The translations under genes and the position numbers were made by a program. A stretch of DNA of 64,000 nucleotides from Actinomycetes bacterium. GTDB taxonomy: Bacteria; Actinomycetota; Actinomycetes; S36-B12. Positions 10,617 through 44,379 of the stretch are shown one piece after another. Position 1 is the first letter of the stretch; every line of letters starts with the position of its first letter. The notes under the pieces are model-generated. The model saw only the letters and a list, made by a program, of their open reading frames with translations, was not told the origin of the DNA and ran no database searches. The stretch spans positions 62,001 to 126,000 of the forward strand of contig JAHECS010000002.1 of the NCBI GenBank assembly GCA_024641635.1, read 5' to 3'.

Positions 10617-12740
10617 CTAGAGGAACGGGACTATCCGCAGCCCCATGGTCGGCGTCGCGGCCCGCTGCCCGACGGTGTCGACGACGACCGCAGCAACCTG
10701 CACGCGACCCTTGCCCGGCGGGAGGTAGACGCGGAACGGCCGGGCGTCGTCACTCCCGATCGAGCGCCACCGTCCGCCCGGGCGGCGAACGAGGAAGGTG
10801 ACCGTGGACGGGTCGGTTCCAGGCACTGTGGCGCTGAGGCGGAAGGTCCCCGTGACGAAGTCCTTGGCGACCTTGAGCGAGATCGTCGGCTCCGGCGGCC
10901 CGGGCAGCGTGCGGTCGGCACGCAGGACGAGCGACGAGCGCGCCGGCAGGACCAGTGCCACGCCACCGGACGCATCCGACCTCACCGGAGGACCTCCGAG
11001 CAGCGAAGACCACGTGGCATCAGGCGTCGACGTCGGCACGGTCACCGTGGCTGGCGCCCCGCCCGAGTTGAACGCCACGAGGTACTCCGTGCGAGCGGCC
11101 GCATCGATCCGGCTGGCGGCGAACACGCTCCCACGACCCAGTCGCGGAATCATGGCTCCCGACGCCAGAGCGGGATGCGAGCGCCGCAGCCTCGCGAGGG
11201 CGGTGATCCGGGCCTCGATCGGCGACGACTCCCCGAAGGACGATCCCGTTCCTATCGGCGGGCCGCCGATGCGCTCCTCCTGCTGCCAGTCCTGAACCAT
11301 CGTCGGGAACATGTCCTGTCGCGCGCGCTTGTCGGTGCCGTCGCCGGACCCCGTCATCCCCACCTCGTCCCCGTAGTAGACGACCGGAACTCCGCGCGTG
11401 AGGTAGAGGAGGTCGTGCGCCAGCAGCGCCCGCTCGAGCAGCGGCGCGCCGGTCTCCTGGGTGTCGGCAGCCAGGAAGAAGCCGATCCGGCCCATGTCGT
11501 GATTGCCGAGGAAGGTCGTCAGCCCGTAGGCGTTGCTGGTCGCCGAGGTGTAGTAGTCGTCCTCCGCGAACAGGGAGGTGAGCAGCGCCCCACTGGCCCG
11601 GCCGGCGCTGAACTTCCGCACGGCGTCCTGGTACGGGAAGTCGAGCACCGACGGCAGCTGGCGTTCACGCATCGTCTCCGACAGTTGCGCGGCATCGGTG
11701 TCCCAGACCTCGGCGAAGCTGGTGAACGACGGCTTGCCCGCTGCGGCCGCCTCCTGCTGGATGAGCGGCAGCCAGCGGCCGAAGAAGTACGGATCCACGT
11801 GCTTGGCGGTGTCGATGCGGAAGCCGTCGATTCCGTACTTCGTGATCCAGTCGCCGTAGGCATCGGCCAGGGCCCTCACGACCGTCCAGTCCTCGGTCAT
11901 CAGGTCGTCGAGACCGGAGAAGTCCCCGTCCATCTCGCAGCGGCCGACGCAGCTGCCCCAGGAGATGTCGCCGCGGTTGTGGTAGCGGGTCAGCTGATTC
12001 AGCACGGCGGGGGCCTTCGCGCGACGCAGCCCGGGCGAGACGGTCGGGGTCTTGGCGAAGCTTCGCCGTGCGGCCAGCCGGGGGAAGGTGCTGCCGACGG
12101 TGTACGACCATGGGTTGAAGGCTCGCCCCGTGGCGGTGCGGTAGGGCGACCTGCCGAGCGGGACGTAGCTGTTGCCCTCCGGGTAGGAGATGACGTCAGC
12201 GGTGTGGTTCACCACCACGTCGAGGAACACCTTCATGTCGAGCTTCTTCGCACACGACATGAAGGCCGCGAACTCCGCCTCGGTGCCTAGGTGCGGATCA
12301 GGTCGGGTGATGTCGAGGAACCAGTAGCCGTGGTACGCGGCACTCGATCCCTGCACGGTCCGCTGCACGAACGGTGGCGTGATCCAGACTGCCGAGAAGC
12401 CCAGCCTCTTGAGCCTCGCGAGCCCGTCATCGGACGGATCGGCCTCGTCGCACCGCCCGGTGAGCCCGGCCAGGTCCCCCCCGTGGAAGTACGCGTCCGA
12501 CGACGACTCGAACCCGGTCCGCTCCAGGCCGCCGCTCGCGCCGCCGGTGTTGTTCGCCGGATCGCCGTCCCGGTAGCGGTCCGTCATCACGAAGTAGAAG
12601 GCGTCCGAGGCGATCGGCGACCGGACGGACGGGACGGCCAGCGACGTGAGCGCGTCGTCCGCCGACGCCGCTCCCGTCGTGAGCCCAGCCGTGAGCCCCG
12701 CGACGGCGACCGCGACGAGGAGCGGCCTACCGAAGTGCAA
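10617..12740 (-). CDS. Secreted GH13 alpha-amylase
   Basis: A 707-residue exported glycoside hydrolase family 13 enzyme that would cut starch or glycogen outside the cell to feed the MalEFG importer. After a signal peptide ending ASA near residue 27 come the (beta/alpha)8 barrel with LDVVVNHT near 173, nucleophile D310 in GFRID, acid E344 in FAEVWD and the NHD motif at 413-415. A C-terminal all-beta region (about 540-707) resembles domain C plus an Ig-like module. The only plausible start is TTG at 12740, inside the end of the ATPase gene (14-base overlap), with a weak ribosome site; translational coupling is likely. Confidence 0.88.
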   Translation of the reverse strand: MHFGRPLLVAVAVAGLTAGLTTGAASADDALTSLAVPSVRSPIASDAFYFVMTDRYRDGDPANNTGGASGGLERTGFESSSDAYFHGGDLAGLTGRCDEADPSDDGLARLKRLGFSAVWITPPFVQRTVQGSSAAYHGYWFLDITRPDPHLGTEAEFAAFMSCAKKLDMKVFLDVVVNHTADVISYPEGNSYVPLGRSPYRTATGRAFNPWSYTVGSTFPRLAARRSFAKTPTVSPGLRRAKAPAVLNQLTRYHNRGDISWGSCVGRCEMDGDFSGLDDLMTEDWTVVRALADAYGDWITKYGIDGFRIDTAKHVDPYFFGRWLPLIQQEAAAAGKPSFTSFAEVWDTDAAQLSETMRERQLPSVLDFPYQDAVRKFSAGRASGALLTSLFAEDDYYTSATSNAYGLTTFLGNHDMGRIGFFLAADTQETGAPLLERALLAHDLLYLTRGVPVVYYGDEVGMTGSGDGTDKRARQDMFPTMVQDWQQEERIGGPPIGTGSSFGESSPIEARITALARLRRSHPALASGAMIPRLGRGSVFAASRIDAAARTEYLVAFNSGGAPATVTVPTSTPDATWSSLLGGPPVRSDASGGVALVLPARSSLVLRADRTLPGPPEPTISLKVAKDFVTGTFRLSATVPGTDPSTVTFLVRRPGGRWRSIGSDDARPFRVYLPPGKGRVQVAAVVVDTVGQRAATPTMGLRIVPFL

Positions 12741-13908
12741 TTCCCGATTCCAGGTCGAAGAACTGGATCCGGGCGGGGTCGACGTGGATCTGGATCGGGT
12801 CCTCGGTCGTGAAGTGCAGCCGTGGCGGGAAGACGGCGGTGCCCTGGATGTCGGTCGCGTGGCGCAAGCGGCCGACCTCCTCCTCCTCGTTCACCAGTCC
12901 GCTGCCAAGGCGCGACTCGTCGACCGGCGTGCCCTCCAGAGCGAAGGTCACATGCACCGAGGAGCCGAGGGCCTCCGCCAGGACGACATGGGCATTCAGG
13001 GTGGAGTAGCCCTCCCGAGGCTCAGGATGGATGTCCTCCGCGCGGACGCCGACGATGACCTCCTCGTTGTTGCGCGACTGCAGGGCCGAACGTGCGGCCA
13101 CGACATCGCGCGGCACCCAGATCTCCTGAGAGCCGACCTTGAGACGGGCACCCTCATCGTCCAGCGTCAGGCCGGCGTGGAACAGGGTCATCGGCGGGGT
13201 CCCGATGAAGCCGGCGACGAAGACGTTGTCGGGGTTGTCATACAGGTCCTGCGGTGCCGCAACCTGCTGCAGTTCACCGAGCCGCAGCACCGCGACCCGG
13301 TGCCCCATCGTCATGGCCTCGACCTGGTCGTGCGTCACGTACAGCGTCGTGATCCCCATCTGCCTCTGCAGGCCGGCGATCTCGGCGCGCATCTGCACCC
13401 GCAGCTTGGCATCGAGGTTGGACAGCGGCTCGTCCATGAGGAAGAGCTCGGCATCGCGGACGATCGCACGGCCCATGGCGACGCGCTGGCGCTGCCCACC
13501 GGACAGCTGCTTGGGCTTGCGGCTCAGCATGGACGTCAGGTCGAGGAGCCGGCCTGCCCGGCCGACCTTCTCCTTGATCGTCTCCTTCGGCTCGTGGCGC
13601 AGGGCGAGCCCGAAGCCGATGTTGTCCCCGACCGTCATGTGCGGGTAGAGGGCATAGCTCTGGAAGACCATGGCGATATTGCGGTCGCGGGGGCCGACGT
13701 CGTTGACCACCTTGCCCCCGATGCTCACAGTGCCGTCGGTGATGTCCTCGAGCCCTGCCACCATGCGAAGGGCGGTCGTCTTGCCGCAGCCCGACGGCCC
13801 GACGAGCACGAGGAACTCGCCGTCCTCGACGTCCAGGGAGAGGTCCTTCACGGCATGGAAGCCGTTGTCGTAGACCTTGTCGACGTTGTCCAGCACCAGC
13901 TCGGCCAT
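12727..13908 (-). CDS. MsmK/UgpC-type sugar ABC transporter ATPase
   Basis: A 393-residue carbohydrate-importer ATPase. Walker A GPSGCGKTT near residue 38, Q-loop FQSYALYPHM, signature LSGGQRQR near 136, Walker B LFLMDEPLSNLD and the switch histidine in YVTHDQ are all intact. The last ~150 residues are the OB-fold (MOP-like) regulatory domain of MalK/MsmK proteins. It starts two bases after the stop of the intracellular GH13 gene. Actinobacterial importers often share one such ATPase genome-wide, but here it sits inside the mal cluster and presumably drives MalFG. Confidence 0.95.
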   Translation of the reverse strand: MAELVLDNVDKVYDNGFHAVKDLSLDVEDGEFLVLVGPSGCGKTTALRMVAGLEDITDGTVSIGGKVVNDVGPRDRNIAMVFQSYALYPHMTVGDNIGFGLALRHEPKETIKEKVGRAGRLLDLTSMLSRKPKQLSGGQRQRVAMGRAIVRDAELFLMDEPLSNLDAKLRVQMRAEIAGLQRQMGITTLYVTHDQVEAMTMGHRVAVLRLGELQQVAAPQDLYDNPDNVFVAGFIGTPPMTLFHAGLTLDDEGARLKVGSQEIWVPRDVVAARSALQSRNNEEVIVGVRAEDIHPEPREGYSTLNAHVVLAEALGSSVHVTFALEGTPVDESRLGSGLVNEEEEVGRLRHATDIQGTAVFPPRLHFTTEDPIQIHVDPARIQFFDLESGIALR

Positions 13909-15761: not shown

Positions 15762-16666
15762 TACCCCTTCACCGACCCCGCGGTGAGGCCGCCGACGATG
15801 AACCTCTGCAGGAACATGAAGAGGATGACGACGGGGATCGCGGCCAGCAGGGCACCAGCCGCGAACGGTCCCCAGTTCTCCGAGTACTCGTTGGCGATGA
15901 AGCCCTGAAGCCCGACAGCGAGGGTCTTGGTCTCCGGAGTCTGGATGAGGGCGCTGGCGATGATGAACTCGTTGATGGTCCCGATGAAACTGAGCAGGCC
16001 GACGACCGCGAGCACCGGGACGGCAAGCGGGAGGATGATGCCCCAGAACACCTGGCCGTGCGTCGCTCCATCGACCTTCGCCGACTCGTCGATCTCCATC
16101 GGGATCGTGTCGAAGAACCCCTTGATCAGCCACGCGTTGACGCCCATGGCACCGCCCAGGTACACGAGGGTGAGGCCGGACAGGGTGTCGAGCCCGATGG
16201 GCGGGAAGACGTCGCCGATGTTCACCATGATGATGTAGATCGCGGTGAGGCTGAGGAACTGCGGGAACATCTGCACCAGGAGAAGGAACATGAGGCCGAC
16301 CTTGCGCCCCTTGAACCTGAATCGACTGAACGCGTAGGCGGCCCCCGCGGCGATGAGCACGGTGAAGACCGCGGCCACAGTGGCCACGATCATCGTGTTG
16401 ATGTACCAGTTGGCGTACGGCTGGTCGGGGTTGTTGAAGAGCGTCTGGAAGTTGGCGAGGGTCGGCTCCGTCGGGATGATGGCGCTGCTGCTGATCGACG
16501 GATCGTTCGTGAACGCCGCGCTGACGACCCAGAGAACGGGGAAGAGGGCTGCTGCGATCGCCACCCACGCGACGATGTGCCGCCAGCCGAAGGCGCGGAA
16601 CCAGCCGCCGAACGTTCGCCGCTTGGCCTTGGGGAGCGGGGGCGCGGATGCGGTGACGGCGCTCAT
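15761..16666 (-). CDS. malG: Maltose/maltodextrin ABC transporter permease MalG
   Basis: A 301-residue permease with six membrane segments; the first is around residues 31-51. The cytoplasmic EAA loop (IDESAKVDGATHGQVFWGI, about residue 198) docks to the ATPase. The C-terminal FIVGGLTAGSVKG is typical of MalG, whose tail reaches the nucleotide sites. The ATG overlaps the malF stop as ATGA; the stop shares one base with the GTG of the GH13 gene. It forms the heterodimeric channel with MalF. Confidence 0.95.
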   Translation of the reverse strand: MSAVTASAPPLPKAKRRTFGGWFRAFGWRHIVAWVAIAAALFPVLWVVSAAFTNDPSISSSAIIPTEPTLANFQTLFNNPDQPYANWYINTMIVATVAAVFTVLIAAGAAYAFSRFRFKGRKVGLMFLLLVQMFPQFLSLTAIYIIMVNIGDVFPPIGLDTLSGLTLVYLGGAMGVNAWLIKGFFDTIPMEIDESAKVDGATHGQVFWGIILPLAVPVLAVVGLLSFIGTINEFIIASALIQTPETKTLAVGLQGFIANEYSENWGPFAAGALLAAIPVVILFMFLQRFIVGGLTAGSVKG

Positions 16667-18534
16667 GAGCGCTCCTCCCTCAGGGCCTTGGATCGGGCGA
16701 ACGAGATGGCCGAGATGGTTCCGACGATCAGGAAGATGATGATGGAGATCGCACTGGCCAGCCCGAAGTCGTTGCCCTTGCCGGCCGCGAAGGCGATCTT
16801 GTACGTGTAGCTGATGAGGATGTCGGTGGCGCCGGCTACCGAGGAGCCCTCGAGGGCCGGACCACCCCCGGTCAGCAGGTAGATGTTGTTGAAGTTGTTG
16901 AAGTTGAAGGCGAATGACGCCACGAGCAGCGGTGTCAGCGCCACGAGGAGGAGCGGCAGGTTCACCAGGCGGAACACCTGGAAGTTCCTCGCACCATCGA
17001 TCCGGGCGGCCTCCTGCAGCTCGCTGGGAATCGCCTGCAGGGCGCCCGTCGAGACCAGGAACATGTACGGAACGCCGAGCCACAGGTTCACGAGGAGGCA
17101 CGAGACCTTCGCCCAGAACGGGTCGAACAGCCACGGGATGCCCAGCCCGGTCGCCGTGTTGATGGCACCGAAGTCGTCGTTGAGGAGCCCTGCCCACACG
17201 AGGACGGACAGGAAGGCCGGTACCGCGTAGGGGATGATCAGCAGCGACCGGTAGATCTTCTGCCCGCGCATGCCCGGCTTGTTGAGCGCGATCGCCAGCG
17301 TGAGGCCAACCGCGAAGGTCAGGAGCACGGTGAGGATCGCGTAGATGAACGTCCAGATGAAGACGTAGACGAAAGGCCCGCTGACGTCGGGGTCGGTGAG
17401 GATCGAGGCGAAGTTGGACCAGCCGATGTTCTCTCGCCAACCGGGCAGCAGCTCGTCGTCCGGGTTGTCAGGGTTGGTGAAGGACCCCTCCCCGTTGTCG
17501 GTGTACACGACCCCGGTCTCGATGTTCGTGAACGTGTCGGTGGCCGCGTCGTAGACGACGATCGGGGTCAGCTCGATCGCGGACGTGAAACCTTCGGCGA
17601 CGATGTACCCGCCATTGGGGCCCGGAATCTTCACGTCCGCGAGCGTCGTGTCGAGTGACGGGTAGTCCGCCTCCGGGACGGTGGCGTAGCCGGTCACGCC
17701 CGTAACGGTCCCGAACTCGTCGCGCTGCACGTCGCCCGGCGGCACGGGATCCAGACCCTCGTTCGTCCCGATGAAGGTGGGCGGCCAGCCGCCCTCGGGC
17801 TCAGGCACGGCGATGTTCATGTCTCCGCCGTCGAGCGAGGCCTCGGACGACGCCACGTCGGTCGAGACCTCACCGGCGCCGAACTCCGTCTGCACACTCG
17901 CCTCGGGACTCGCCGCCTCCGAACCGCCGAACTCCGTCTGCACACTCGCCTCGGGACTCGCCGCCTCCGAACCGCCGAACTCCGTCTGCACACTCGCCTC
18001 GGGACTGGCCGCCTCCGAACCGCCGAACTCCGTCTGCGTCTCGTCGACGGGGACCTCGCCCAGGTCGGTGCCGTCGGTGAGGGTCTCGTCGAGGGGCTCG
18101 TTCGGCACTTCGGTGAGCGCGAGGACCACCTTCTGGCCCTCGGCGTAGAGCGGGAGCATGTCGTAGCTGACGGCACCGTCGGTCTCGGCGACCGAGTCCG
18201 TCTGGATCGTGTCGATCGCCTCCTCCTTCGAGCCGATGTGGCCCGTGGAGTAGTTGGTGAACGCGATCGCGACCGTGTAGCCGATGGGGATGAGCTGGAA
18301 GATGGTGAGCAGGATCGCCCCGATGATCACGTACTTGCCGGGGATGAATCGCTTGCCCAGGAGGAAGAAGTCGAGCGCCAGGGTGCAGCCGACGAGGACG
18401 ACGAGCATCGCCCAGTTGGCCGTCGACAGAAGCGCTGGGATCGCCCAGATGGCGGCGCCGTTGACGAGGCCGAGGAAGACGAGCTTGAGGATGAGCGCCG
18501 GGGTGCCCCCGAAGCGGGAGATCAGGGCCTGCAT
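16663..18534 (-). CDS. malF: Maltose/maltodextrin ABC transporter permease MalF with large extracellular P2-like domain
   Basis: A 623-residue permease with the enterobacterial MalF topology: three N-terminal membrane helices (about residues 13-36, 41-60, 68-91), a large external loop (about 98-385), then five further helices. ENIGWSNFASILTD after the loop, YRSLLIIPYAVP, the EAA loop LQEAARIDGARNFQVF and NFNNFNNIYLLTGGGP all match MalF. The external loop carries three exact 16-residue repeats beginning QTEFGGSE at residues 167-214 and a degenerate fourth. In E. coli the P2 loop contacts the binding protein. Most Gram-positive MalF proteins have little or no such loop. Confidence 0.95.
   Translation of the reverse strand: MQALISRFGGTPALILKLVFLGLVNGAAIWAIPALLSTANWAMLVVLVGCTLALDFFLLGKRFIPGKYVIIGAILLTIFQLIPIGYTVAIAFTNYSTGHIGSKEEAIDTIQTDSVAETDGAVSYDMLPLYAEGQKVVLALTEVPNEPLDETLTDGTDLGEVPVDETQTEFGGSEAASPEASVQTEFGGSEAASPEASVQTEFGGSEAASPEASVQTEFGAGEVSTDVASSEASLDGGDMNIAVPEPEGGWPPTFIGTNEGLDPVPPGDVQRDEFGTVTGVTGYATVPEADYPSLDTTLADVKIPGPNGGYIVAEGFTSAIELTPIVVYDAATDTFTNIETGVVYTDNGEGSFTNPDNPDDELLPGWRENIGWSNFASILTDPDVSGPFVYVFIWTFIYAILTVLLTFAVGLTLAIALNKPGMRGQKIYRSLLIIPYAVPAFLSVLVWAGLLNDDFGAINTATGLGIPWLFDPFWAKVSCLLVNLWLGVPYMFLVSTGALQAIPSELQEAARIDGARNFQVFRLVNLPLLLVALTPLLVASFAFNFNNFNNIYLLTGGGPALEGSSVAGATDILISYTYKIAFAAGKGNDFGLASAISIIIFLIVGTISAISFARSKALREERS
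17881..18024. repeat. Three tandem 48-bp repeats inside malF
   Basis: Copies at 17881-17928, 17929-17976 and 17977-18024, differing by one base in the third; the first 13 bases of a fourth copy follow at 18025. Each encodes 16 residues rich in Glu, Ser and Ala. Near-identity at DNA level points to recent duplication and likely copy-number variation between strains. Confidence 0.95.
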
Positions 18535-38496: not shown

Positions 38497-39531
38497 CTAC
38501 GCCCCCTCGACGAACGCCGGCCCGGTCGACGCCCGGACCACGAGCTCGGGGCGGAAGACGAACTCGTCGCGAGGCGCCGGAGTGCCGTTGATGCCGTCCA
38601 GCAGCGCCTGCACCGCCGCGGTTCCCATGGCCGTCACCGCCTGGCGCACGGTGGTGAGGGGCGGGTCCGTGAAGGCGATGAGGCGCGAGTCGTCGTAGCC
38701 GACGACCGACACGTCCTCCGGCACCCGCAGCCCCCGCTGCCGGATCGTCCGGATGGCGCCGAGGGCCATGAGGTCCGATCCGCAGACGATCGCAGTGACG
38801 CCCAGGCCGAGCAGGTGGTGCGCGGCCGCCTGGCCACCCTCCAGCGCGAAGAGCGAGTGGGCGACGAGCCCGGCGGCCTCCTCGGCAGGCATCCCGGTCT
38901 GCCGGGTCATCGCATCCACGAAGGCCGCCCGCTTGCGGACGACGGGGACGAACCGGATGGGTCCGACCGCGAGCCCGATCCGACTGTGACCCATCGAGAC
39001 CAGGTGGGTGACCGCGAGGTCCATCGCCGTCGCGTCGTCGTCGGAGATGAACGGCGCGTCGATCCCCTCCGCATAGCCGTTGACGAGAACGATCGGCAGC
39101 CCCCGCTCGACGAGGACCCGATAGGCGGAATGATCCGCCGTGGCATCGGCGTGCATACCGGACACGAACACGATGCCGGCGACGCCCCGGTCGAGCAGGA
39201 GCTCGACGTACTCGTCCTCGGTCACTCCCCCTGGTGTCTGCGTGCACAGGACCGGCGTGTAGCCGTGCTGCGCCAGCAGGGTCTCCATCACCTGCGCGAA
39301 CGCCGGGAAGATCGGGTTCTCCAGCTCGGGCACGATCAGGCCGACGAGCCCGGAGCGGCCGCGAAGCCGCAGGGGTCGCTCGTAGCCGAGGACGTCGAGC
39401 GCGGTCAGCACCGCCTGGCGGGTGACCGTCGACACCCCCGGCCGGTCGTTCAGCACCCGGGAGACGGTGGCCTCGCTGACGCCGGCCTGCTCGGCGATGT
39501 CCGAGAGGCGCGCCCTGGGGTTCTCGCTCAC
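38497..39531 (-). CDS. LacI-family transcriptional regulator
   Basis: A 344-residue repressor. The N-terminal helix-turn-helix has LSDIAEQAGVSEATVSRVLND and the hinge YERPLRLRG; the sugar-binding-protein-like core starts GLVGLIVPELENPIF and shows VVGYDDSRLIAFTDPPLTTV near residue 280. GTG start with TAGGCT six bases upstream, so the transcript is probably leaderless. It may control the neighbouring hydrolase and amine genes, or the maltodextrin cluster, whose malE has a LacI-type operator; the sequence does not decide. Confidence 0.92.
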   Translation of the reverse strand: MSENPRARLSDIAEQAGVSEATVSRVLNDRPGVSTVTRQAVLTALDVLGYERPLRLRGRSGLVGLIVPELENPIFPAFAQVMETLLAQHGYTPVLCTQTPGGVTEDEYVELLLDRGVAGIVFVSGMHADATADHSAYRVLVERGLPIVLVNGYAEGIDAPFISDDDATAMDLAVTHLVSMGHSRIGLAVGPIRFVPVVRKRAAFVDAMTRQTGMPAEEAAGLVAHSLFALEGGQAAAHHLLGLGVTAIVCGSDLMALGAIRTIRQRGLRVPEDVSVVGYDDSRLIAFTDPPLTTVRQAVTAMGTAAVQALLDGINGTPAPRDEFVFRPELVVRASTGPAFVEGA

Positions 39532-39579: not shown

Positions 39580-40845
39580 GTGCGACTCACCGGAAGCCTC
39601 CAGGAGCCGGAGCTGGCCTTCCTCCCCTGGAGCGTGCCGCTCGAGCAGTGGCCCGACGACATCGTGGTGGCGCTGCCGCGCGGCATCTCCCGGCACATCG
39701 TCCGGTTCGTGCGGCTGAACGGCGTCGCGTACGCCGTCAAGGAGGTGGAGGAGCACTTCGCCGTGCGCGAGTACGAGCTGCTGTTCGACCTGCAGCGGCG
39801 CGGCCTGCCGACCGTCGTGCCGGTCGGCATCGTGCTCGACCGGGAGGACGCCGCCGGCGAGGACCTGCCGGCCGCCCTCATCACCCGCCATCTCGAGTTC
39901 TCCCTGCCCTACCGAGCCCTCTTCTCGTCCAGCCTGCGCCTGGAGACCGCGAACCGGCTCCTCGACGCCCTCGCCGTCCTCCTCGTCCAGCTGCACCTCG
40001 CGGGCTTCTCCTGGAACGACTGCTCCCTGTCGAACACCCTCTTCCGGCGCGATGCCGGGGCCTTCGCCGCGTACCTCGTCGACGCCGAGACCGGTGAGCT
40101 CCACCCCGAGCTGTCCGGCGGCCAGCGCACCTACGACATCGAGACGGCGTCCACGAACGTCGCCGGAGAGCTCATGGACCTCCAGGCGGGTGGCCGGCTG
40201 CACGACGGCATCGACCCGATCGTCACCGGGGTCAGCCTGCACACCCGGTACGACGGCCTCTGGGGTGAGGTCACCGGACCCATCGTGATCACACGGACGG
40301 ATCGGTACCCCCTCGAGGCACGGGTCCGGCGCCTCAACAGCCTCGGGTTCGACGTCGCGGAACTGCAGGTCAGCACGCAGGCGGACGGGCAGCACATCAC
40401 GGTGGCCCCAAAGGTCGTCGACTCCGGACACCACTCCCGGCGCCTCATCCGCCTCACCGGCCTCGACGTCGAGGAGAACCAGGCGCGGCGCCTGCTCAAC
40501 GACCTCGACTCCTTCCGGCTCAAGATCGGCCTCGGCCCGGAGGACGAGGAGTTCGCCGCCCACCGATGGGTCACGGAGCGGTTCGAACGCGTGATGTCCG
40601 AGGTTCCCCCCGCTCTGCGCGGGAAGCTGGAGCCCGCCGAGATCTTCCACGAGGTCCTCGAGCACCGGTGGTTCATGTCCGAGCGCGAAGGCGCCAGCGT
40701 CCCGTTCGGCGAGGCGATCACCGACTACGTGACCACGATCCTGTCGGCCAAGCCGGACGAGCAGGCCGTCCTCGGCTCACGCGCCGGCACCCCGAGCGAC
40801 GACACCGCGGCCCTCCGGATCGTCATGCCCATGGATCCGCCGTGA
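39580..40845 (+). CDS. DUF4032 protein with kinase-like N-terminal domain
   Basis: A 421-residue soluble protein. The first ~175 residues resemble a WaaP/Kdo-kinase-type fold with the expected catalytic signs: AVKEV with Lys54, an EYELL helix with Glu64 or Glu66, WNDCSLSN with Asp147 and Asn152, and VDAE with Asp168. The remainder is the DUF4032 region, including SLGFDVAELQVS and a late HRWFMSERE. The GTG at 39580 was chosen because the frame upstream runs through the LacI gene. Its TGA overlaps the antiporter GTG (GTGA). Substrate unknown; a protein or small-molecule kinase is inferred. Confidence 0.82.
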   Translation: MRLTGSLQEPELAFLPWSVPLEQWPDDIVVALPRGISRHIVRFVRLNGVAYAVKEVEEHFAVREYELLFDLQRRGLPTVVPVGIVLDREDAAGEDLPAALITRHLEFSLPYRALFSSSLRLETANRLLDALAVLLVQLHLAGFSWNDCSLSNTLFRRDAGAFAAYLVDAETGELHPELSGGQRTYDIETASTNVAGELMDLQAGGRLHDGIDPIVTGVSLHTRYDGLWGEVTGPIVITRTDRYPLEARVRRLNSLGFDVAELQVSTQADGQHITVAPKVVDSGHHSRRLIRLTGLDVEENQARRLLNDLDSFRLKIGLGPEDEEFAAHRWVTERFERVMSEVPPALRGKLEPAEIFHEVLEHRWFMSEREGASVPFGEAITDYVTTILSAKPDEQAVLGSRAGTPSDDTAALRIVMPMDPP

Positions 40846-42029
40846 TCGACGGACTCGCGTCCCTCTTGGCCATCGCGGTGATAGCCGCCGTCGTACCCAT
40901 GATCGTCGGGCTGTTCAACATCCGGGTCGCGGAGGTCGTCCTCCTCCTTGGCGGAGGCATCCTCTTCGGGCCGGAGCTCCTCGGCCTCATCAGGGTCGAC
41001 GCCCCGATCGAACTCCTCTACGAGCTCGGCCTCGGCATGCTCTTCTTCATGGCCGGGCTCGAGCTCGATCCCCAGGCGATCTCGGGCCGCGGCGGAAGGC
41101 TCGCGGCCAGGGGCTGGTTCATCTCGCTGGCGCTCGCACTGTCGCTCGGCGGCCTGCTCGCCTTCGGCACCGTGAGCTTCGACAGCATCGGCTTCGCCAT
41201 TGCCCTGACGTCGACGGCCCTCGGCACGCTGCTTCCCGTCCTTCGTGACAGCGGCGAGCTCGGCACCCCCTTCGGGCGCCTGTTCATGGGTGCCGGGGCA
41301 TGGGGGGAGCTCGGACCCATCGTCGCCATCGCGATCCTGCTGGGCTCCAAGTCGAAGTTCGCCGCGATCCTCACCCTCATCGCGTTCGGTCTCGTCGCCC
41401 TGCTGCTGGCGTGGGTGCCCGCCCGACTCGCCACCGAGAGGATCCGCGCCATCCTCGACCGCGGTCACCACACCTCGTCGCAGACCGCCATCCGATTCAC
41501 CATGCTCCTGCTCATCGGGCTGCTCGCCATCTCCGGCTCGTTCGGGCTCGACGTGGTCCTCGGTGCCTTCGCCGCCGGCATGATCGTCCGCCGACTTGCG
41601 CCACCGTCCGGGGATTCCCTGCTCATGACCCGCATCGAGGCAATCGCCTTCGGCTTCCTCGTTCCGATCTTCTTCGTCGTGTCCGGTGCCAACCTCGACG
41701 TCCTCGCCATCGTCGAGAACCCGCTCGGCCTGGCAGTCGCCGTCCTCCTCCTGCTCCTCGTGCGCGGGCTCCCCCAGTACTTCCTCTACCGGGGGCTCAT
41801 TACCGACCGCCTGCACCGAGCGCGGTTCGCCCTGCTCGTCGCCACCGGATTGCCGATCATCGTGGCGGTGACGAGCCTCGAGGTACGGCAGGGCCTCATG
41901 AGCAGCAGGAGCGCGGCGATCCTCGTCGGGGCTGGGGCGCTCTCCGTCCTGGTCTTCCCGCTGCTGGGCAACCGGCTCGTGCGGGGCAGGCCGCCCCTTG
42001 CTCAGGACCTGGCGGCGAAGACCGACTGA
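40842..42029 (+). CDS. CPA2-type monovalent cation/proton antiporter
   Basis: A 395-residue membrane protein with about 12 segments. GLGMLFFMAGLELDP near residue 65-80 and the unwound-helix features (ALTSTALGTLLPVL near 125, GLDVVLGAFAAGMIVRR near 230) match CPA2/KefB-like exchangers; LELD carries the family aspartate. It lacks C-terminal RCK domains, so regulation may come from elsewhere, possibly the translationally coupled kinase-like DUF4032 protein. Its end overlaps convergent rlmB by 28 bases. Confidence 0.88.
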   Translation: MIDGLASLLAIAVIAAVVPMIVGLFNIRVAEVVLLLGGGILFGPELLGLIRVDAPIELLYELGLGMLFFMAGLELDPQAISGRGGRLAARGWFISLALALSLGGLLAFGTVSFDSIGFAIALTSTALGTLLPVLRDSGELGTPFGRLFMGAGAWGELGPIVAIAILLGSKSKFAAILTLIAFGLVALLLAWVPARLATERIRAILDRGHHTSSQTAIRFTMLLLIGLLAISGSFGLDVVLGAFAAGMIVRRLAPPSGDSLLMTRIEAIAFGFLVPIFFVVSGANLDVLAIVENPLGLAVAVLLLLLVRGLPQYFLYRGLITDRLHRARFALLVATGLPIIVAVTSLEVRQGLMSSRSAAILVGAGALSVLVFPLLGNRLVRGRPPLAQDLAAKTD

Positions 42030-42958
42030 AGGACGATGCCGGCGGCGACCGACGCGTTGAGCGACTCGACGCCGCCCGCCATCGGGATGCTCACGCGCCA
42101 GTCGCAGGTCTGGCCGACGAGCCTGGACAGTCCGGCGCCCTCGGCTCCCACCACGATCACCACCGGATCGGTGAGCACGTCGCGATCCAGACCGCCGAGG
42201 TCCACGTCGGCGTCCGCCGCGAGCCCGATGACCGTGAATCCGGACTTCTGCAGCCCCTCGATGGTCCGGGTCATGTTCGTCACCTGGGCGACGGGGATGC
42301 GGGCCAGGGCACCGGCCGAGGTCTTCCATGCGGACGCCGTCACGCCCACCGATCGCCGGGTGGGCACGATGATCCCGTCCGCGCCGAAGGCCGCCGCCGA
42401 GCGTGCGATCGCGCCGAGGTTGCGCGGGTCGGTGACCCCGTCCAAGGCGACCAGCAGCGTGCCCGAGGTCAGCGCGGACAGATCCGCGTACTGGTACTCG
42501 GGCACGGTGAGCACGAGTCCCTGGTGCACGCCCCCCTCGGCCATGCGGTCCAGCTCGGTCTTCGGCGCCTCGAGGATGGGGATGCCCTTCGCGACAGCGA
42601 TGCGCATGATCTCTCGCCAGCGGTCGTCGGCGTCTGCCTTGGACTGCACGTACAGGCCCGTTGCCGGGATGCCGGCACGGAGTGCCTCGACGATGGGATT
42701 GCGGCCCATGAGCAGGCTCCCCGACGACCGGCGCGAACTCGACGATCGCCCCGTTCCGCGCTTGCTCGCACCCGACTCGGCGCGCTTCTTGGCCGCCCGA
42801 TCGCGCCGCGCGGCGGGGTGGTGGGGGCGCTCGGTCGCCTTGGGCGTGGGCCCGCGGCCCTCGAGCTTGGCCCGCCGCTGACCGCCCGATCCGACGGTCG
42901 CGCCCTTCTTGCTCCCCGTCTTGCGCATGGCTCCGCGCCGCTGAGAGTTGCCTGCCAT
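42002..42958 (-). CDS. rlmB: 23S rRNA (guanosine-2'-O)-methyltransferase RlmB
   Basis: A 318-residue SpoU-family knotted methyltransferase. A long basic, disordered extension (1 to ~80) precedes the substrate-binding domain (LMGRNPIVEALRAG) and the catalytic domain: LVALDGVTDPRNLGAIARSA near 165, VVGAEGAGLSR near 265 and IPMAGGVESLNASVAAGI near 290. It methylates a conserved guanosine of 23S rRNA. Fourteen bases separate it from cysS, and this cysS-rlmB order is conserved in actinobacteria. The ATG at 42958 includes the basic tail, as in relatives. Confidence 0.93.
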   Translation of the reverse strand: MAGNSQRRGAMRKTGSKKGATVGSGGQRRAKLEGRGPTPKATERPHHPAARRDRAAKKRAESGASKRGTGRSSSSRRSSGSLLMGRNPIVEALRAGIPATGLYVQSKADADDRWREIMRIAVAKGIPILEAPKTELDRMAEGGVHQGLVLTVPEYQYADLSALTSGTLLVALDGVTDPRNLGAIARSAAAFGADGIIVPTRRSVGVTASAWKTSAGALARIPVAQVTNMTRTIEGLQKSGFTVIGLAADADVDLGGLDRDVLTDPVVIVVGAEGAGLSRLVGQTCDWRVSIPMAGGVESLNASVAAGIVLQSVFAARS

Positions 42959-42972
42959 GTCCGTCCTTCCCG

Positions 42973-44379
42973 CTAGTCCAGCGACCAGCGGACACCGTGC
43001 GCGGTGTCCTCGACACGGATGCCGATTCGGTCGAGGTCGTCGCGGATGGCGTCTGCCGCCGCGTAGTCCTTGCGCGCACGGGCCTCGGTCCGCTGGGCCA
43101 GCACGACCTTCACGAGCGCGTCGATCACGTCGACGTGCCGGTCGCCGCCGCCCGAGCCGGCGCTCGCCCAGGGTTCCGACCACGGATTGAGGCCCAGCAC
43201 GTCGACCATCGCCAGGACCGCGTCGAAGGCGTCGGCGACCCCGGCCGCGTCGTCGGCGGCCAGCGCCGCGTTGCCCTGTCGGACGTGCTCGTGGACCACG
43301 GCCAGCGCCTGTGGAACGGCGATGTCGTCGTCCATCGCCTCGTCGAAGGCCGCCGGGCGTGCGTCAGCCCGGATCGCGGGAGGTGCGCTGATCCCCTGCG
43401 ACTCTCGGGCCCGCTCGAGGAAGCCCTCGATCCGACGGTAGCCCTGACCGGCCTCGGCCACGTTGTCGTCCGAGTACTCGAGCATGGAGCGGTAGTGCGA
43501 GCCGGCCAGGTAGTAGCGCAGCTCGACGGGACGGACCCGCTGCACGACCTCGTCGACGAGGAGGGAGTTGCCGAGGGACTTGCTCATCTTCTCGCCCGCG
43601 GTCGTCACCCAGGCGTTGTGCAGCCAGTAGTTGGCGAAGCCGTCACCCGCCGCCTTCGACTGGGCGATCTCGTTCTCATGGTGCGGGAACACCAGGTCGA
43701 GTCCGCCGCCGTGGATGTCGAAGGCCGGCCCGAGGTACTTCGCCGCCATGGCCGAGCACTCGACGTGCCATCCAGGCCTGCCGCCGCCCCAGGGCGTGTC
43801 CCACGCCGGCTCGCCGGGCTTGGCCGCCTTCCACATGGCGAAATCCCTGGGATCACGCTTTCCTGCGGCCGCCGAGTCACCCGACTCCAGCATGTCGTCG
43901 AGGCGCTGCCCACTCAGCGCGCCGTACGCCCCATAGGACTTCACGTCGAAGTAGACGTCCCCTGCGGCTGCGTACGCGTGGCCGGCGTCGATGAGCCTCT
44001 GCATGAGGGCCACCATCTCGGGGATGTGCCCTGTCGCCCGGGGTTCGTAGGTCGGCGGCAGGCAGCCGAGGACGTCGTAGGCCCGGGCGAAGGCGCGCTC
44101 GTTCTCGATCGCGACGACCCAGTACGGGATCCCCGCCTCGGCCGCCTTGGCGATGATCTTGTCGTCGATGTCGGTCACGTTGCGCACGAATGAGACGTCG
44201 TAGCCCCTGGCCGTGAGCCAGCGGCGGATGACGTCGAAAGCGATGCCACTGCGGATGTGCCCCACGTGCGGAGCCGCCTGGACGGTGGCCCCGCACAGGT
44301 AGATGCCCGCCTTGCCGTCCTGGATCGGGACGAAGTCCCGGACGGAGCGGGTTGCGGTGTCGTAGAAGCGCAGGGCCAC
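42973..44379 (-). CDS. cysS: Cysteinyl-tRNA synthetase
   Basis: A 468-residue class I synthetase. The HIGH-type motif is PHVGH near residue 37; zinc ligands appear as the Cys in [16 protein letters not shown] and HHENE; KMSKS is at about 270. It is longer and more complete than the related MshC ligase of mycothiol synthesis. The GTG start is supported by TAGGGT exactly six bases upstream, giving it its own leaderless promoter despite lying in the conserved carD-ispD-ispF-cysS-rlmB array. A broken gene separates it from ispF. Confidence 0.96.

Follow-up and report, generated by a model that had tools for sequence, protein, structure and literature searches.

The DNA analysed here, referred to as the window, is a 64,000-nucleotide stretch of an actinomycete draft genome of 3.06 Mb in 82 contigs (GCA_024641635.1, contig JAHECS010000002.1, positions 62,001 to 126,000). 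The only DUF4032 gene of this genome, which encodes a predicted atypical kinase, lies on its forward strand (39580..40845; 421 amino acids, GTG start), and several near relatives of its product come from records titled Candidatus Nanopelagicales. The gene order at the locus is LacI-family regulator (38497..39531, minus strand; divergent from the DUF4032 gene and 48 nucleotides from it), DUF4032 protein (plus), KefC-like cation/proton antiporter (40842..42029, plus; 395 amino acids), RlmB 23S rRNA methyltransferase (42002..43183, minus), and CysS cysteine-tRNA ligase (42973..44379, minus). The rlmB gene is convergent, overlaps the 3' end of the antiporter gene by 28 nucleotides, and is a recurrent neighbor of DUF4032 genes; cysS is a conserved flank that we used to mark the site. 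The DUF4032 frame runs from the GTG at 39580 to a TGA at 40843-40845, and the antiporter starts with the GTG at 40842; the stop and start codons thus share the GTGA at 40842..40845, as described in the original prediction, which was made from the DNA sequence.

What Pfam names DUF4032 is the C-terminal part of the protein. PF13224 matches residues 227-388 (40258..40743) with an E value of 2.8e-64 and 216.3 bits against a cut-off of 23.8, making the protein a full member of the family. The N-terminal part is kinase-like, with the fold extending over about residues 1-234, and here PF06293 (Kdo/WaaP) matches residues 51-173 (39730..40098) with an E value of 1e-7 and 32.1 bits against a cut-off of 21.3; the KdkA model NF002475 gives 23.3 bits, far under its cut-off of 142. 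We aligned the protein with 45 other DUF4032 proteins that are 45 to 86% identical to it, many of them from lineages that lack the antiporter. G35, K54 (39739-39741), E64, D147 (40018-40020), N152, and D168 (40081-40083) are invariant in 46/46 sequences. Judging by the kinase pattern, the last five are presumably the strand-3 lysine, the helix glutamate, the catalytic aspartate, the asparagine, and the metal-binding aspartate, and the earlier statement that these kinase residues are retained was correct.

An AF2 model of the protein, built with the 46 sequences (pLDDT 85.7, pTM 0.84), has the two lobes of a protein-kinase-like fold of the WaaP/Bud32 type. Its best Foldseek match is WaaP (6dfl, E value 9.3e-10), with a probability of 1.00 for both WaaP and Bud32, and VIA-align superimposes it on PRPK (Z 13.3, rmsd 3.5, 192 residues), WaaP (Z 11.7, rmsd 5.3, 201 residues), and an aminoglycoside phosphotransferase (Z 11.6, rmsd 3.9, 181 residues). 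Model, search, and superposition therefore agree on the kinase fold that had been proposed for this protein. The highest VIA-align scores are those of the Bud32/PRPK kinases of KEOPS (Z 12.0-13.3 over 191-194 residues), which are 13 to 14% identical to the DUF4032 protein and lack its DUF4032 domain. The heptose kinase WaaP/RfaP and the Kdo kinase KdkA (PF06293) likewise share the kinase fold but not the additional C-terminal domain. In the WaaP profile alignment, D147 falls on a WaaP aspartate and D168 on a later one, whereas a histidine stands where the DUF4032 protein has Asn152; to our knowledge, no lipopolysaccharide is expected in actinobacteria. Modeled alone, the DUF4032 domain (pLDDT 84.0, pTM 0.65) had no significant Foldseek match in the PDB (best E value, 0.16), a result obtained with a model and no proof of a new fold.

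The protein could instead be a pseudokinase or a nucleotide-binding scaffold that carries out no phosphotransfer. The Kdo match in Pfam is only moderate, WaaP is a marginal match in a sequence search of the PDB (E value 0.049), and the model has low confidence at residues 32-36, the nucleotide loop. Full invariance of catalytic positions is not usual in pseudokinases, however, and the five catalytic positions and G35 never vary in the alignment; we regard this alternative as very unlikely. Because the active-site residues are unchanged in all of these relatives, the protein is likely to be an active enzyme, as the original prediction suggested.

The antiporter consists of the membrane domain only. 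PF00999 covers residues 13-375 of 395 (127.5 bits against a cut-off of 26.2), extending over its whole length as in KefC and NapA, and is its sole Pfam match at an E value of 0.01. Pfam found no C-terminal RCK (TrkA-N) domain in the 395 residues, which sets the protein apart from Kef systems, including KefC, and bears out the claim that it lacks a cytoplasmic regulatory domain of its own. With the CPA2 model TIGR00932 it scores 96.6 bits, below the cut-off of 238.3, and we therefore filed it under PF00999 only and named it KefC-like. Among PDB profile matches, KefC is nearest (E value 1.2e-21; NapA, 7.8e-11). The Gln-Asp of KefC and the Asp-Asp of NapA align with Gly155-Glu156 of the antiporter (codon 156, 41307-41309), so that neither form of this ion-site motif is present; Gly-Glu occupies the position in 40/40 antiporters of the family, and Asp237 is invariant in the same 40. 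We take Gly-Glu at this position to be an uncommon variant of the ion site. The genome holds five PF00999 genes, and a BLAST search of the antiporter against the other four proteins gave nothing better than an E value of 3.

The original prediction raised the possibility that the DUF4032 protein is a kinase-like controller of ion exchange. A dedicated controller of this kind would phosphorylate the antiporter, or bind it in a nucleotide-dependent manner, and so replace the missing RCK domain; if the coupling were functional in this sense, a soluble atypical kinase would stand in for a transporter's regulatory domain. The lack of such a domain in the antiporter and the invariant active site of the kinase agree with this idea, as does the arrangement of the two genes in relatives. 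We collected 21 DUF4032-antiporter junctions, including that of the window and after dropping 7 duplicate loci. Both genes point in the same direction in all 21, with a 4-nucleotide overlap in 8 and a 1-nucleotide overlap in 2, and the predicted coupling thus recurs in several relatives (10/21 overlapping). Gaps of 2-16 nucleotides separate the genes in 4/21, gaps of 66-264 nucleotides in another 4/21, all from a related family (L100, L102, L103, and L104), and the remaining 3/21 have a DUF4032 gene that is broken or reduced to a remnant. One of the eight 4-nucleotide overlaps, L058, has a frame break inside DUF4032. L005 (6293-8816), which belongs to the record of L108, has DUF4032 followed by two antiporter copies in tandem, of which the nearer one shares 4 nucleotides with DUF4032.

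The pair is not unique to the window. In an even set of 148 genomes of the window's order, 44 encode DUF4032 and 58 the antiporter (matches to the window protein at an E value of 1e-20 or better, some of them distant: G016, 45% identity; G027, 41%; G037, 35%). Counting the overlap of the two sets by hand, we found both genes in 27 genomes, the antiporter without DUF4032 in 31, DUF4032 without the antiporter in 17, and neither in 73. The two genes are adjacent on one contig in 21 of the 27, although in three of these (G011, G109, and G043) DUF4032 is broken or a remnant, and perhaps also in G056, whose match values equal those of G011. In the other six (G005, G024, G027, G029, G074, and G123) they lie on different contigs, which in G024 may be due to contig ends. 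Mere neighborhood, that is, close packing of genes that share no function, would account for the 66- to 264-nucleotide gaps and for antiporters that, in the absence of DUF4032, adjoin lacI or other genes, but sits poorly with a common direction in every junction and overlap in ten; we give it little credence.

The two genes nevertheless part repeatedly. Over half of the antiporter genomes of the order (31/58) lack DUF4032, and 22 of these 31 are at least 90% complete; the other nine are below 90%, so some DUF4032 genes may have been missed. Conversely, 17/44 DUF4032 genomes lack the antiporter. Among 20 fetched genomes of the 31 with the antiporter only, it adjoins rlmB, as in the window, in 17 (exceptions: L081, L086, and L088). 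In four genomes (L089-L096), DUF4032 is found at rlmB and the antiporter on another contig, and in L058, L101, L105, and L106, an intact antiporter lies beside a DUF4032 gene that is frame-broken, stopped, or a remnant, although an assembly error can produce such a frame break in a draft genome. On an unrooted tree of CysS and RlmB for 43 loci (seven duplicate loci dropped beforehand, broken DUF4032 copies counted as absent), DUF4032 changed state at least 10 times and the antiporter 5 times. Independent pairs on this tree gave no significant co-loss (median P of 0.125), in a test that is biased because presence of one or both genes was the criterion for choosing the 43 rows. The very close relatives L066 and L076 differ in that only L066 has kept DUF4032. 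The partners are thus not kept or lost together as those of a dedicated pair would be, and an antiporter that depends on the kinase is not expected where the genes separate so often.

Outside the order we did not find the antiporter as a neighbor. Order membership was assigned by record title, by the order sample, and by similarity, and loci with short flanks (L109-L137) were left out; the antiporter was found at 0/86 of the resulting DUF4032 loci by tblastn and at none by profile at an E value of 1e-5, and among the loci seen it neighbors DUF4032 only in the window's order. The kinase active site is just as invariant in antiporter-free lineages. Given this distribution, an obligate controller is unlikely, and a dedicated role, which our results do not support, seems distinctly improbable. 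An accessory influence of the DUF4032 protein on the antiporter is possible in close relatives of the window's genome.

DUF4032 itself is more widespread, occurring in 62/296 sampled genomes of the phylum (58 above the family cut-off), and the PF13224 family was also found in the Thermus, Deinobacterium, and C. glutamicum controls. Of the outside-order loci with enough flank, 25/83 have a gene for a UgpC/MsiK-type sugar ABC ATPase immediately before DUF4032, in the same orientation (8/38 in the even phylum sample, 7 of these 8 from the window's class, and 17/45 among loci found by similarity). The 3.06-Mb genome of the window encodes five UgpC-type ATPases at 46% identity or more, a density at which far fewer than one such neighbor would be expected by chance in 83 loci. 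The rlmB gene is directly downstream and convergent in 19/86 (4/40 even, 15/46 similarity-found), and the 5.5 kb upstream of DUF4032 contain otsA in 22/76 (3/35 even versus 19/41 similarity-found). Many of these loci come from related genera, and the counts are therefore not independent events. Further recurrent neighbors are glpX fructose bisphosphatase and enolase; others carry no sugar theme (enoyl-CoA hydratase, methionine-tRNA ligase, universal stress protein, and a dynamin-like protein). The order in L138, L139, and L142 is OtsA, OtsB, LacI, UgpC, DUF4032, RlmB, CysS, with other genes interspersed in places, and the LacI regulators of these loci are 60 to 73% identical to that of the window. 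Inside the order, UgpC is directly upstream of DUF4032 in 5/24 nonduplicate loci, including L100, L102, and L104, where the antiporter gene follows DUF4032; rlmB comes next in L102 and L104, but 3 kb later in L100. L015 and L017 have UgpC, DUF4032, and RlmB and lack the antiporter.

Trehalose is an osmolyte, and its synthesis genes near DUF4032 in some lineages, together with the coupling seen in relatives, raise the alternative that kinase and antiporter both function in osmotic or ionic adaptation without direct contact, the coupling serving joint production alone. Against this shared stress operon, otsA is upstream so rarely in the even sample that the trehalose link appears to be mainly a trait of nearer relatives, and many genomes hold just one gene of the pair. 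The co-occurrence of otsB with DUF4032 is mild (53/62 DUF4032 genomes versus 164/234 others, counted by hand and uncorrected for kinship). Searches of the window's genome returned no otsA or otsB family match, which led us to reject trehalose as the function of DUF4032 there and to assign the trehalose context to other lineages. We consider this alternative rather unlikely.

C. glutamicum IpsA (PDB 3H5T) is a LacI regulator whose gene often lies near otsAB (PMC3899939). The window's LacI protein was not identified as IpsA, since 3h5t is not among the 44 PDB-search sequences at an E value of 1e-20 or better.

We favor, tentatively and at a little less than an even chance, the interpretation that DUF4032 proteins function as active atypical kinases in the uptake or metabolism of carbohydrates and that they became coupled, within the window's order, to an inserted antiporter. 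The WaaP/Bud32-like half would be catalytic, with the C-terminal DUF4032 domain probably binding a substrate or partner, and the enzyme would most likely phosphorylate either a small sugar-type compound or part of the machinery that imports sugars. The older neighborhood would have comprised a UgpC/MsiK-type ABC ATPase gene, DUF4032, and then rlmB and cysS on the opposite strand, in some lineages extended by otsA-otsB and by a LacI regulator gene. The antiporter gene may then have inserted between DUF4032 and rlmB in the window's order, after which UgpC would have disappeared from this site in the lineage of the window and repeated losses of DUF4032 would have followed; as the tree is unrooted, we infer the direction of these changes from the outside-order loci. 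Tight coupling would have arisen in closer relatives of the window's genome. It suggests that the two proteins are probably made together, presumably without direct interaction, and neither would need the other. In comparison with other bacteria, the kinase gene has stronger ties to genes of sugar uptake than to ion exchange, and its pairing with the antiporter in one group of aquatic-type actinobacteria therefore looks like a local arrangement of genes. Counter to this interpretation, gene neighborhood is indirect evidence and the loci are not independent, some neighbors carry no sugar theme, the window's genome has no otsA or otsB and holds its best UgpC homologue on another contig, DUF4032 and otsB co-occur only mildly, and the overlap in ten junctions argues for some shared purpose.

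DUF4032 is a conserved yet unstudied kinase-like family. Our literature search, which had most subscription journals outside its reach, returned no paper that uses the name DUF4032, none that joins lipopolysaccharide kinase, trehalose, and actinobacteria, and none that joins MsiK ABC transporter, kinase-like protein, and Streptomyces. A complete kinase active site and, in many lineages, a sugar-import ATPase as neighbor point to a first function that can be tested for this family. It is conceivable, but highly improbable in our view, that DUF4032 proteins are transporter-associated atypical kinases that act with UgpC/MsiK, the common sugar-import ATPase, across many actinobacteria and were recruited to the antiporter, with its missing regulatory domain, in the window's order, where the sugar or energy state would set cation/proton exchange by phosphorylation.

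Two DUF4032 loci, L052 and L062, come from records titled Tissierella and Natronospirillum. The gene order of L052 equals that of the Varibaculum loci L048-L050, and the titles may therefore be wrong or the bins contaminated. Within the window, about 25 kb upstream of the DUF4032 gene, an ABC ATPase gene (12727-13908) encodes a protein with 58% identity over 309 residues to a DUF4032-linked UgpC and is accompanied by an ABC permease gene (16663-18534).
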